Assembly: GCA_015039365.1 (NCBI GenBank)
Contig: WION01000018.1
Coordinates: forward strand, 186,001-250,000
Source of the DNA: Amanita rubescens
Taxonomy: Eukaryota; Basidiomycota; Agaricomycetes; Agaricales; Amanitaceae
Direction of reading: 5' to 3'
DNA length: 64,000 bases
Position numbers and translations under genes: made by a program. Positions 57,874 to 64,000 of this stretch are shown in pieces. The notes under the pieces are model-generated. The model saw nothing but the letters and a program-made list of their open reading frames with translations, searched no databases and had not been told where the DNA came from. Numbering within the stretch: position 1 is the first letter of the stretch; every line of letters begins with the position of its first letter.

Positions 57874-58736
57874 AAGGGCAAGTTCTGTGCTCTTATCTCA
57901 TATCATCTCCATTCCATCGTCTCTCTCTTTCTCTCTCTCTTTCTCTAGGGTATTTTTGGTTAATCGGGATTCGGCGTCACGGTGTCTCTCAAACGTACGT
58001 ACATACATGTATAGATTCATTTGTATTATGCGGTGTATCACAATGTCCATTTATGTAGCTTCTATTAGTTATGTTTTATTCAAAGTCTTTGTTGAGGCTG
58101 ACGTCCACATGTTAAGCAATGAGTCGGGACCCCGGGTCCGAGTGTAATGATTGTAACCGTAGACATAGCCTTTTAAGCGGCCTATCGACCCCTCCTTTAC
58201 TCCGTTCCGAATAATCTTAGTATGTACTAGTTTGATTGATATTCTTATTTGACACCTCCCCTTGTTTTGATCAAATAATCATTAAATGCCAAGGCACGTA
58301 TTTCAATTCCAACAATCTTCGACAATACAAGTTGTACAAAGTACCCAAATTTGGACTTGAGTCATAAGTGGGACATTCAACAAAATAGAAATTCAACAGA
58401 TATAACTACAGAGACTCGAGGGAAGGCATGGATTGTGAATCATTCAAGTGGTTAGTTTTCCTATGCCAAATTTGAGTATTGAGCTCAGAAGCATTAGTAG
58501 CAGTGACATACCACCAATCTTGGAAATCTGAGCCAGATTACACATGAACACCAGTAAATCTCGGTGGTCAGAAGGCAATTGGTTCGTAACAGTACTAATA
58601 CTAGTATTACATTTCAATCCTCAAAACAATCTTTGACACTGCTTGTACAAAGGAGTCTGTGCTCAAACCTAGGCAAATTGGAGTTTCATAAGTGGGACTC
58701 AGAGAGGAGCCTGAGAGACATTCAACAAAATGAAAT
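57874..58736. other. Gap downstream of the microexon gene, with a degenerate repeat of its 3' end
   Basis: 57910-57950 is a CT-rich simple repeat in the 3' flank of the preceding gene. About 58360-58585 is a diverged copy of 58710-58935 (see the repeat entry). Nothing else supported. Confidence 0.6.
58360..58585 (-). repeat. Diverged tandem copy of the last exons of the microexon gene
   Basis: On the minus strand it reads LPSDHRDLLVFMCNLAQISK followed by GTATGTCACTG, matching LPSDHQGLLVFMCNLSQISS plus GTATGTCC at 58915-58854. The following intron and terminal segment (GAAGGCATGGATTGTRAA, TTCAACARRYATAA on plus) also match at a ~350 bp offset. Confidence 0.8.
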
Positions 58737-61700
58737 TCAACAGGCATAAGTAGTACAGAGAGGGAAGGCATGGATTGTAAACTTTGTTGTGGTCACTAGT
58801 ATCCTATGGCAAATTCTAGTATTGTATATATGACTCAGAAGCAGAGTGTTGAAGGACATACCACTGATACTGGAAATCTGACTCAGATTGCACATAAATA
58901 CAAGTAAACCCTGATGGTCAGAAGGCAGCAAGTCTGAAGTAATGGAGGTCTTCAGTTTCTCTGCATGACCTTCTCTTTTGAACTGTTTGAAAGCATTCAT
59001 GAGTGATTCCTTCAAAGACTGCCTCCCAAATGATCCAATGATGGATCTCTTAGTTTGGTTCATTATCCAAAATGACAATTTTGCAATGATGGCCATTGCT
59101 TCAGAGTATTAGTATTCTTGCAAAATGGTAAATGAATAAGGATGAATTACCAACTAAGATTTGACATCCTGCAGGCTAATTACAGAAGCATCAATCAGTA
59201 ATTGTAACAGCACACTAAAAGAAAATCTTACACTTGCTGAGAACTGAGTCTCACTTGATGTTTGTACTAAGCTGGACTTGAGGTAAAGTCTTGGCTAATG
59301 ATGAGAAAATGTGAAACCATCAAAATCTGATTCAGTTGTGGAAAATCACTCTTACAGCTCTTGTGACTTCCATCAAAGATAGAAGCTCAGGCTGATGGCA
59401 ACAAGTGTGAAATTATCTGGTTCAGCACAGAAGAGGGCATACAAGCTGAAAGTAAATGAACATAAGCCATTCCTTTTCATGTATTTCATTACTCACCTAG
59501 CAGTAGTAGAGGATGGAATAAAGTCAGGAAGAAGATGAACAAAATGTCATCTTACAATCTGTAGTAGATATTGGTAAGATACTAAAGAGAGCAGAACATG
59601 CATAGCAAAAGTAAATGTTCACTAACTTCCTGTTAAGTTTATGTATATTGAAGTGTTACATTTCAATGCAAGTGCAATCTTGCTCACTTCCTATTTTTAC
59701 AAGTAAAAGGATTTACAAAGGGAAACACAAACCCACTCACATCCTGTTTTCATGGAACAGAGATATGTCGAGGTGACAGTGGGGTAGGAAATGCTTATGT
59801 CTCTCACAAACTAATTCATATTGACATGAGAGTGTGTATTGGCAACAGAAAAAGTGCAGTATCACTTACAAACTATTAATCATAAGTAACAATATCCTGC
59901 CAGAAAAAATAGCAATGTGACTCACTTCCTGTTTGTCATGCAGAAATGTTGCTATATAATTCCAGTGCACTTACTGCCTTTAATTATTGAATAACCTGAG
60001 AAGAGGCCACCTGGTACTACGATAGAGCCACTTACTCGCTAGTGATCATGAGTGAGATCCTGTCTGGCAAACAAAGTACAATATCACTCACATTCTATGT
60101 ATTTGTTATGGGGGGGTGAGTAAGATGAGAGTGCTTGGCAACACTTACATCCTGTTCAATAAGACATAAGATGTTGTACTTGCAATGCATTCTAGCAGAA
60201 AACACAACTGACTCTCTGATGATGATTGTTGAATTGGGTGTGATGGGGGTGCCTGGTATTATTTCATTGTACTCACAGTCTATCATTAGTCATGGGATGA
60301 GATAAAATGAGACAATTGTACCAAAGAAGAATTGAGGTCACTCACACCCTTCAATAGTCATGACTCATGGGATAAACTACCTGACCAAAAATGTGGTGTC
60401 ACTCACTTCCTGTTGGTCGTGAGATGAGACTGTCTAGCAAAACAACTTGTAGTTCCACTTACACTCTGTCAGTCCCAGAATGAGAAGCAATGAAACTAAG
60501 CATAGAAACATTAATGGGGCTCACAATCTGTTTCCCAGTGATATGATGTGACCAGCTTGGAAAGAACAAAAATCCTGCTCACTCCCTAATAATCATTGGA
60601 GGAGGTGTGATGGAATGGCTGAAAAAGAAGTGTGACCATGACTCACATCCTAATGGTCATGGAATAGACTGTGATGAGAACCCCTGTTGGAAATGACAAA
60701 ATGCAATGTCTCTCACATGTCCTTCCTGTTGCTCATGCAATGTGATGAGGTGTCACTGCCTGACATGGAAAAATAGTATTTCAACTCACAAACTGGTAGT
60801 AGGATGACTGAAGTGAGATTGCCTGGAAAAATAAAAATGAAGTGTCACTCACTTGCTGTTGATGTTGATCATGTCCCTGTTTGAAAAAAGGTGTAGTGTC
60901 ACTCACATACTGTTGTTCACGAGACAGTGAGGTGTGATGAATGCCTTGAAAAAAAGATACAGGTGTCACTCACATGCTGTCAGCCATAATTATAAGATGT
61001 GATGAGATGAGACTCCCTAGTGAAGAAAAATTGAAATTTCTCTCACATACTATTGGCCATGAATGAGATTGCAATGAGACTCATTAGCACAGAATAAAGG
61101 TAGTGCTCACTCCTTCCAACTGTTGGTTCATAAATTGGATGTGATGAGACTGAAAGTGTTGAGTGTCACTCACAAACTATTCATTACATGGAATGAGATG
61201 TGACAAAAGTGCATGGCAAAGAAATGGCATAGTATTACTCACCCTCTGTTGGTCACAGTGTGCTGCTACATGAGACTGCCAGAAAACAGGGCATTTCACT
61301 CACATCCTGTTGATGATGTAATGTGATTGAGACTACCAGCAAAGAAAAATGTTCAAAGTCACTCATCACTCACTTTCTGTTTCAACAGGATTAGATATTA
61401 TTTAAGTATCTAGCAAAGATGAGGAATGTATTTTCACTCACATCCTGTTAATGGTGGGGTGAGTTGAGTTTAACAAAGAGTAAAATTCAGTGTTACTCAC
61501 TTTCTGTTAATGGTTGGATGTCAAGTGATATGATCACCTAAATAAGTGTAGTATCACTCACGCTCTATTGATTGTGTGATGTGATGTGACTGCCCAGTGA
61601 AGTTCCTTACAAACTTTTGGTGATGCATGTATAAGACTGCCTGAGAAAGAAAAGATTACTCACAAACTGTTGGCCAGTCAATAAGACTGTCTGTAGAAAA

Positions 61701-64000
61701 ATACAGTGTTACTCACTCCCTATCAATAATGAGATAAGATGTTTTGAAACTGCTTGGAAAAGATAAAACTCTAGTGCCACTCACATACTGTTGGTGATAC
61801 AGTGGAAAATTAAAATGCTAAACAAATGTAGAATTGCTTACTCCCTGTTGGTTATGTGTGATGCTATTATCTGGCACAAAATAAATGAAACATCACTCAC
61901 AAACTGTTGGTCATGACAAAGGTTAAAACTGCCTGAAAGGGGAAATTAGTTGCAATGGACTCACATCCTGTCGACGATAAGATGTTACATATGTGACTAC
62001 CTGAAAAGACAGAAATGCATAGTCACTTACTTCCTGTTGTTCATGTGATGCAACCATTTGACAAAGAAAAAATGGAGTGACACCCACTCTCTAGAATTGC
62101 ATTGGTGACTCAATAAGACTTCCTGCAAACAGCAAAAATATACTGCCAGTCACTCACATCCTGTTGTTCATCACTGGATGAGGGAAACTGTCTGGAAAAG
62201 ATGCAGTATCACTTACATACTGCCATAGGTTGTGTGATGACAATGAGCAAAAGATTACTGTGTTACTTACAGTCTGTTGGTGCTGTGGTGAGGGATGTGA
62301 CATGAATTTATGAAAATGCAAGAAAGGAAAAGAAAAGCTGTTTTACTGACTTTCTGTCAATGAGATGAGATCATGACAACATGGCATAGAAGAAAAATGT
62401 GGTGTCACTCACATCCTGTTGTTCATGGTAATGAGTTGTGATGACTTGCAAACAAGTACAGGGGCCGTGTCACTCACTTCCTGTTGAGTATGCAATATGA
62501 AATGACAAAATGGTTCAACAGAAAATACACTTACATACTGTTGATTTTGAGAGATATAAAGAGAATGACAAGCTGTGCTGCAAAGTACAAAAGCACTTAC
62601 CCACTGTTGGACAGCAAATGACATGAATAAGTTTGTCTGACTCTGTCCAGATATTTGCAGTGACAAACATCCTGTTTATTGACAATCAGTGTTTCTGTAC
62701 ACTGCCAAAGAATCATGCAATTCTCACTCTCTGTTGAATTAAATTAACAAAACAATTTAACAAAAAAAAATTGCAATGTCACTTACTTCCTTTCAATCAT
62801 GTGATGAAATTATGATGAAGAGGAACATGCACTGCCACTCACTTCCTGCCAGTCATAAAATGTTGAGATATCCTATAGATAACTGTACAGCATTTGGCAC
62901 TCACTCTCTGTAAATGAAATGCATAGGGTGTACAAAAATGAGTGCAGTCTCACTTACTGCCTGTTGTGCATACTATGGGATGTGGTGAGACTACTAAACA
63001 CTTGTTGCTCACAATCTATCAACAATTTGAACATCAGAAAACAAGCATCAGTAGTACAATGTTGCATACTCTCTTAATCAGATAAGATGAATCTGTGTGC
63101 CATCAAGAGAATAGAGTAACTCACATTCTATGTGGCATAGCATGACATGTGACTGCCTGGCCAATGCAGCATTAACACTCACTGCCTGTTCACATGGGAT
63201 AAAAGGTGGTTATGCTGTTCTCAAAAAAGTGCAACTCACCCTCTGTTTGCCATATGAAGAATCTTGATGAGAGCATTCATAGAAATTTGCACATCACTTA
63301 CTTCCTATTGCTCATAGTGGGACAAGTTCTGTCTGTAGAAGGTACAGCATCACTCACAAACTGTTTTTGAAAAAAAAAAAGATCATCAAAGACTGACTAA
63401 TAACTAAATTCTTGTCACTTGCCCACTGAAGTTGTACAAGGTACATATCAGGTATGCAAATGAGCATATTTTGTGCAATTTCACTCACATTAATTTCATT
63501 GTGTTTCTTGAGACAGAGTTTTGTTGTCAAACTGCAATGTGCAAGATGAAGCTCAACATACACCCAGCTCATCATTTTGTTCAGTGCAGTTCATCATCAA
63601 AGAGAGTGAATTTCTGTACTCACATCTCTCTTGAATTTGTGCCAACAATAACTAATTATTGCTGTCATATATTTTGCACAAACTAAAGCTTACTTTTCGG
63701 TTAACCTGTTTTTATCTCAGATTTCCCATATTCATCTGAATCTGTTTGGGAAGTTACCCAGTAATGAGGGAACTTGCTGAGGATAATAATAAAAACTTTT
63801 TCCAATGGTGTATCCAGTTGTCGACTCATAACATGCCTAGACACTGAACATTTGAAATAAATATTTCAGTGTGATCCACTCACTTGAGCCCAGATTTAAC
63901 ACAAAGACCAAGATTGTTCATTTGAGTTGAGACAAAGAGTTCTCGTAGACTGGCATCATCAATTGCATCAGCAGTCCTCTCAGTCAATTCTGGACAGTTC
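58737..64000 (-). CDS. Gene of unknown function with a block of single-codon exons, 5' end beyond window
   Basis: From the right edge, conventional exons join in phase: 64000-63884 (TERTADAIDDASLRELFVST...), 63836-63706 (RQLDTPLEKVFIIILSKFPH...), 63661-63624 (AIISYCWHKFKRD) and 63551-63489 (LHLAHCSLTTKLCLKKHNEI). After the microexon block come 59385-59356 (LLSLMEVTRA), an exon ending FSAS at 59232 (12 to 45 nt, acceptor ambiguous), 59175-59151 (PAGCQILV), 59098-58862 (MAIIAKLSFWIMNQTKRSII...LVFMCNLSQISSIS) and the last exon 58795-58737 ending PLCTTYAC stop. Outside the block introns are 41-80 nt and phases agree at every junction (for example G|TG at the last). Composition is AT-richer than the rest of the window. 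I recognise no domain. The conventional exons read as real protein; expression is unproven. Confidence 0.7.
59386..63488 (-). repeat. Array of about 67 short related introns enclosing 63 three-nt exons, two 9-nt exons and one 0-nt exon
   Basis: Each unit on the minus strand is (Y)AG, then NNN, then GTGAGT (variants GTAAGT, GTATGC, GTCAGT, GTTAGT, GCAAGT). Exon left ends (plus coordinates) with residue: 63423 W, 63358 F, 63302 E, 63240 R, 63183 A, 63125 N, 63070 R, 63013 I, 62958 A, 62905 R, 62843 E, 62787 E, 62728 R, 62669 D, 62601 W, 62535 Y, 62478 E, 62413 D, 62351 K, 62271 T, 62217 Y, 62158 D, 62088 R, 62031 E, 61965 D, 61901 F, 61842 G, 61785 Y, 61717 G, 61664 F, 61611 F, 61562 S, 61501 K, 61442 D, 61374 K, 61304 D, 61243 R, 61174 F, 61111 LEG, 61047 Y, 60974 H, 60907 Y, 60853 Q, 60790 F, 60717 EGH, 60647 D, 60583 G, 60525 I, 60463 S, 60407 E, 60346 G, 60277 T, 60213 R, 60149 D, 60092 N, 60036 R, 59975 A, 59926 E, 59870 F, 59808 F, 59741 D, 59688 E, 59627 E, 59556 I, (0-nt at 59496/59497), 59443 L. 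Introns are 46-77 nt and share a consensus: GTGAGTGACACTRCATTTTT, mid TTTGCCAGGCAGTCTCATC, end CATGACCAACAG. Confidence 0.75.

Follow-up and report, generated by a model that had tools for sequence, protein, structure and literature searches.

Can a protein segment be stored one codon per exon, dozens of times in a row? The question is raised by the minus strand near the end of a 64,000-nucleotide (nt) stretch of the Amanita rubescens genome (the window; C90:186001-250000 of 75.7 Mb), where part of a gene for a predicted GTPase very probably consists of 63 one-codon and two three-codon exons spliced in one frame. The run is predicted to encode 69 residues that lie between the G domain and a helical domain at the C-terminal end, and, judging from the sequence comparisons below, A. 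rubescens cells likely splice dozens of three-letter exons serially. Exon size would then reach the one-codon limit dozens of times in one gene. Serial one-codon exons test how the spliceosome pairs splice sites without room for exon definition, and coding sequence split in this way is easily overlooked.

A run of predicted one-codon exons

Between 63425 and 59443 on the minus strand lie 65 tiny exons in a single frame: 63 measure exactly 3 nt, and two measure 9 nt (61119-61111, encoding LEG, and 60725-60717, encoding EGH). Joined together, they give 69 codons with no stop, in phase 0 throughout, and both ends of the array join conventional exons in phase 0. These counts are identical to those of the first-pass annotation, which proposed the run from the DNA letters. 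Each exon is preceded by AG and followed by a donor of the GTRAGT-like type that the annotation described, except that the TGG exon has a GC donor. The flanking exons it had placed at 63551-63489 and 59385-59356 keep their ends at 63489 and 59356, but alignment with relatives moves their starts, giving 63506-63489 (KHNEIN) and 59391-59356 (PELLSL...). Introns between the 65 exons measure 46-77 nt, apart from one of 110 nt with an AG/GT site. From the G domain to PELLSL, the gene model is a 1140-nt coding sequence without a stop. As a gene structure this is a micro-exon gene, with a long series of symmetric micro-exons in its coding region.

The exons were chained by a parser that permits stops and recovers 63 of the 65 (61 of 3 nt and both of 9 nt); the TGG and CTT exons at the two extremes were not chained and were added by eye and by homology. 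The longest parser chain was 2 units in 100 dinucleotide shuffles of positions 58901-64000, and a single unit both on the opposite strand of 58001-64000 and on either strand of positions 1-58000.

P-loop GTPases carry the motifs G1 (GxxxxGKT), G3 (DxxG) and G4 ((N/T)KxD), and the window model has all three, as GRANAGKT, DSQG and TKFD, respectively. Against the Pfam domain MMR_HSR1 (PF01926), the model of a second locus, L010, scored 19.2 bits, under the curated cut-off of 21.9; some relatives carry the domain.

Similar arrays recur across the genome. A strict two-unit pattern occurs 2,539 times genome-wide, and there is no occurrence with the pattern reversed. We studied 20 loci of up to 10 kb and then five more, which are a part of all arrays, and 22 loci have a parsed array (L009-L028, L044 and L045). 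Of these 22, 20 are preceded on the same strand by the G domain of a predicted GTPase; in the remaining two, L013 and L022, the parsed array begins at the locus edge. Mean intron length is 59.7 nt over 933 introns of 17 arrays.

Coding evidence from related mushrooms and from the genome

A protein search with the L010 model returned open reading frames (ORFs) of near-full coverage on JGI contigs of ~1.4-1.7 kb from related mushrooms; an uninterrupted homologue, which the first-pass annotation had named as a check of its reading, was thus located. The relatives' ORFs lack the G-domain introns, so the contigs, including those of P0014, P0016 and P0024, are most likely RNA-derived. The P0024 alignment takes in 99% of the window model, with 60% identity, and spans both the start of the array (VNRK-RD-KHNEIN-W-F-E-R) and its end (EEI-L-PELLSL); the array itself aligns with P0024 from end to end. 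On their own, the 69 residues reach a score of 88 with P0024 and of 62 with P0016, which none of 5000 shuffles equalled (best shuffle 80 and 55, respectively).

A paralogous array, L045, gave a stronger match. P0014, an ORF on a JGI contig of 1.5 kb, aligns with almost all of the array of 53 one-codon exons in L045; the alignment has two gaps, 32 of 51 aligned residues are identical and the score is 150, whereas the best of 5000 order shuffles scored 61. Past the array match P0014 reads VCDIAQFSE, and the next intron of L045, read through by eye, gives VCEMPQFSE; the end of P0014 looks like the same intron left unspliced in a transcript. Triplets taken 1-25 nt to either side of the exons scored at most 41 for L045 and 36 for the window, compared with 150 and 77, and only the exact exon triplets matched contiguous ORFs. 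When 17 arrays were compared with eight ORFs, 12 beat all 500 shuffles and L014 was reached by two; the L014, L018 and L019 queries are among those holding a short conventional exon, which raises the score. The spliced-gene reading put forward in the first-pass annotation is supported by these matches, with the segment of the window gene carried by the contiguous ORFs P0024 and P0016 and that of L045 by P0014.

Within the genome, none of the 936 one-codon exons of 17 arrays is a stop, where the base composition of the three codon positions predicts 55.8, although array units are related by duplication and the 936 exons are therefore not independent trials. This count uses one array per locus with known copies dropped; it omits L020, L022, L023, L028 and L041-L043 (copies or near-copies), the irregular L044, short loci and the second arrays of L013, L021 and L022. 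The earlier estimate that stops would be absent by chance about 1 time in 25 was too modest, since the case is far stronger with the genome's other arrays included. Of the 20 loci parsed first, 13 (L010, L011, L016-L018, L020, L021, L023-L026, L028 and L012), some of them mutual copies, spell out a motif like WFEQGKKETDREIKYDG, whole or partial, with each codon in its own exon. In L012 the motif was recognised by a TDREIEY stretch, an earlier parse having given the start as WFEQGKETD, and weaker versions occur in L014 and L019.

Codon usage in the arrays is skewed. The third base is A or T in 878 of the 936 one-codon exons and C in four; for the G-domain codons of the window gene the figures are 189 and 44 of 287. 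Leucine is mostly CTT, arginine CGA and glycine GGA. Splice-site constraint, CpG loss or descent from few founder units may account for the bias.

Several observations weigh against spliced coding arrays. We infer the RNA origin of the JGI contigs from their absent introns. The match of the window tail is less clear with P0019 (score 51, reached by 9 of 5000 shuffles) and P0072 (45, reached by 36), it is weak with P0014 (159 of 5000 shuffles reach the score), and no match was seen with P0037, P0001, P0011, P0046 or P0055. The tails of L012, L013, L015 and L027 have no clear match among the eight ORFs (scores reached by 11, 46, 461 and 451 of 500 shuffles, respectively), and a query limited to residues 260-457 of the window protein, covering a portion of the pre-array region together with the array and the C-terminal part, gave no hit at E 0.001. 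Compared blind with 1,074 introns, the end of P0014 scored 46 at best, equal to the maximum of 300 shuffles (mean 30.6), so the weight of that observation rests on the intron's position in L045. Inside the L044 array two 4-nt and three 2-nt exons never restore the frame, and the parser left longer, stop-containing pieces in L013, L020 and L044. Exons of the shared motif are 88% identical and intron interiors 83%, a slight difference only (64 pairs; 12 loci including two near-copy pairs, with L021 out of register and L020 irregular), and codon changes in the motif are mostly nonsynonymous. Base conservation by itself is therefore weak evidence, and we set the codon-versus-intron comparison aside as coding proof.

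One parser control was also put aside. Reversed sequence gave chains of 7-57 units in 14 of 20 loci (57 in L018 and 53 in L010); reversal is unclean as a control for uniform repeats, so we relied on the order-shuffle, offset and dinucleotide-shuffle controls.

Proposed splicing mechanism and possible origin of the arrays

A 3-nt exon is too short for exon definition, which points to intron definition with sequential removal; fungal introns of ~60 nt are thought to be recognised across the intron. In the mechanism we propose, intron definition would pick out the ~60-nt introns, which have strong GTGAGT-type donors, and their excision would be successive: a 3-nt exon would already be attached to the lengthening exon when the following donor comes into play. 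All units are in phase 0 and, apart from the two of three codons, one codon long, so the gain, loss or skipping of a one-codon unit alters the protein by precisely one residue. Most of the segment is predicted to be disordered, and it could serve as a linker that evolves fast within an expanded family of GTPases. We put forward tentatively, at somewhat less than even chances, that many genes store a variable segment as single codons in splice-flanked, frame-neutral cassettes. If so, proteins would be edited residue by residue via gain, loss, shuffling and skipping of one-codon exons, and the introns between cassettes would be homogenised independently of the codons.

Variable inclusion, in which the array is spliced but many molecules skip units and the proteins differ residue by residue, is compatible with serial splicing and possible, if on the unlikely side. 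Any subset of the window units preserves the frame, P0014 suggests incomplete splicing, and among three copies of one array on different contigs (L016, L041 and L043) one is short of one GGA unit, which removes a residue and leaves the frame intact; the near-complete alignment of P0014 with L045, broken by two gaps, speaks against variable inclusion.

How the arrays originated is a matter separate from splicing. In L018 (C79), 41 introns share a single 62-nt sequence while the codons they separate differ, and L044 (C13) has 37 identical copies of a 62-nt intron between different codons. Beyond the motif region of L018 the introns are 98% identical and neighbouring codons agree in 21%. Over 12 arrays, the upstream codon is the same in 18% of the 930 pairs with identical introns and in ~7-11% of pairs with introns 50-80% alike, a small excess for identical introns. 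Near-identical introns around different codons suggest that intron sequence spreads or homogenises largely without the codons, a concrete puzzle about intron copying. Possible routes are intron insertion, replacement of introns through RNA, or recombination accompanied by selection on the codons.

The first of these routes could have begun with a mobile intron (introner) inserted at every codon boundary of a contiguous coding tail. The uniform L018 introns around differing codons favour such an origin, which we nonetheless find doubtful. Random insertion would not yield uniform 3-nt spacing in phase 0, and the intron family seems confined to one-codon arrays, with no spread across unrelated genes seen in the 20 loci and window that were read: 685 of 712 exact genomic copies of a 29-nt intron piece follow AG-NNN (the other 27 were not inspected), and in the 20 loci plus the window 1,356 hits fall within parsed arrays, while second arrays in L013, L021 and L022 account for the remaining 89.

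Two further explanations were considered and rejected. Between copies of one array on separate contigs, 1 codon base in 939 and 35 intron bases in 17,606 were found to differ, with units aligned by codon, which hides some differences; present codon hypermutation as the source of codon variety is thus unsupported. The comparison sums five pairs (L016/L041, L016/L043, L017/L023, L018/L028 and L015/L042) and omits L041/L043 (not independent), L045/L030 (a partial copy) and 11 introns of unequal length. Simple unit-by-unit tandem duplication fails on adjacent units, which share a codon in just 7-24% (12 arrays). The tandem duplication raised by the first-pass annotation, taken as unit-by-unit copying, does not account for identical introns around different codons. 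Block duplication does exist (L018, lag 18, 9 of 12 codons).

It is improbable that the family is coding and spliced while the window locus is a relic no longer expressed: its introns are the most diverged of the 12 arrays compared (mean 58% identity), with some weak splice sites and the GC donor, but all 69 codons are open, the frame is held at both ends and the match with P0024 runs end to end. Least credible is a degenerate tandem repeat within one large intron, its AG-NNN-GT sites duplicated and never joined, for although the units are mutually similar and regularly spaced, such a repeat is at odds with the absence of stops from 936 exons, the match of only exact exon triplets to contiguous ORFs, the motif common to paralogues and to P0001 and P0011, and the apparent retention of a homologous intron in P0014.

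Known systems, protein model and layout of the gene

Exons of aphid bicycle genes are larger than one codon. Bicycle and megacycle genes are described, in the excerpts available, as long series of unusually small exons that are nearly all in one phase, with bicycle exons in phase 2 and proteins that are putative effectors (PMC9168663). They resemble the Amanita arrays as gene families with serial small exons in one phase, whereas the window array is in phase 0 throughout, with one codon per exon. The micro-exon genes (MEGs) of Schistosoma mansoni have many tiny exons with lengths mostly multiples of three and are hard for automatic annotation to trace; in the passages available, their exons are mostly 15 bp (minimum 6, or range 3-81), their introns reach 5 kb and their proteins are secreted (PMC10526429). 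Many tiny symmetric exons are common to both, but the Amanita segment has nearly all 3-nt exons, introns of ~60 nt and a predicted GTPase as product, and so falls outside the MEG family as described there.

Single 3-nt microexons are spliced in Ncam and Drosophila troponin T (PMC8042270), and a 1-nt exon is spliced in Arabidopsis (PMC4674806). Exons this small can therefore be spliced; as far as the excerpts show, those are single exons, whereas the Amanita arrays would have them by the dozen in series. Introners are near-identical intron families in one genome, described as inserting into many genes (PMC9860276), whereas the near-identical Amanita copies seem to keep to the one-codon arrays. 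As far as the available excerpts go, these systems are the nearest, and a run of one-codon exons features in none of them; the matches listed in open-access literature held no description of one-codon exons in series, some queries being narrow or off target.

An AlphaFold2 model of P0024 (50 sequences; mean predicted local distance difference test score, pLDDT, 81) predicts the G domain and the helices at the C-terminal end with confidence. At residues 316-359 pLDDT drops under 50; the one-codon exons align with the stretch between W327 and about residue 376. The array segment is absent from many of the 50 sequences, so low pLDDT there may partly reflect a thin alignment. The best Foldseek matches to this model were immunity-related GTPases (IRG) and dynamin-like GTPases, mostly with TM-scores of 0.2-0.4 and ~9-15% identity; the best E was 6.5e-06, but with TM-scores of 0.35/0.42 and a root-mean-square deviation of 13.9. 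Those proteins likewise have a G domain followed by a helical domain, but TM-scores and identity are low, and the kinship suggested by the model is a lead only.

Table 1. Features of the predicted GTPase gene (window positions; the gene model excludes exons between PELLSL and the C-terminal exon)
Feature	Position	Strand	Basis
Exons G1-G5	64969-64075, beyond window	-	read from locus L009
Conventional exon G6 of GTPase gene	63884..64000, on to 64019 beyond window	-	gene model; homology to P0024/P0016
Conventional exon G7, ends FPHYW	63758..63836	-	gene model; FPHxW conserved in relatives
12-nt exon VNRK	63694..63705	-	gene model; aligned with VIRE of P0024
6-nt exon RD	63624..63629	-	gene model; alignment with relatives
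18-nt exon KHNEIN	63489..63506	-	gene model; P0024 has KHNEID
First one-codon exon TGG (W), GC donor	63423..63425	-	gene model; W conserved in relatives
61 one-codon and two 9-nt exons, all phase 0	59556..63360	-	parser, gene model
AG/GT junction, zero-nt exon, possible recursive splice site	59496..59497	-	inside 110-nt intron
Last one-codon exon CTT (L)	59443..59445	-	gene model; EIL-P in P0016/P0024
36-nt exon PELLSLMEVTRA	59356..59391	-	gene model; PELFSV / PGLLSL in relatives
C-terminal conventional exon MAIIAKLSFW...	58866..59096, limits approximate	-	IIAKLSF conserved in relatives

The AG/GT junction is a possible recursive splice site inside a short intron. In 22 loci scanned, a zero-exon junction of this kind lies 55-83 nt past the terminal ATT exon in 12 of the 15 that have that exon; it agrees with EIL-P in relatives and fits the spliced reading.

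Four A. rubescens database proteins of the family that were read as protein models (P0002, P0012, P0031 and P0046) have no one-codon segment: the models either stop shortly beyond the FPHxW motif or run on with no tail, jumping over the segment. In 1-kb windows, GC content is 36-41% in positions 58001-64000 and 43-56% in the remaining window. Three local features of other arrays were also noted. At 2744-3917 in L044, the two 4-nt and three 2-nt exons lie among 3-nt ones and the stretch total is not a multiple of three. Also in L044, at C13:581782-584805 in contig coordinates, an array has codons that are mostly CTA, CAA or CGA, with the middle base varying and the introns mostly identical. At about 7740-9070 of L010, a repeat-like stretch is inserted, by eye apparently within the intron between the array and the C-terminal exons.

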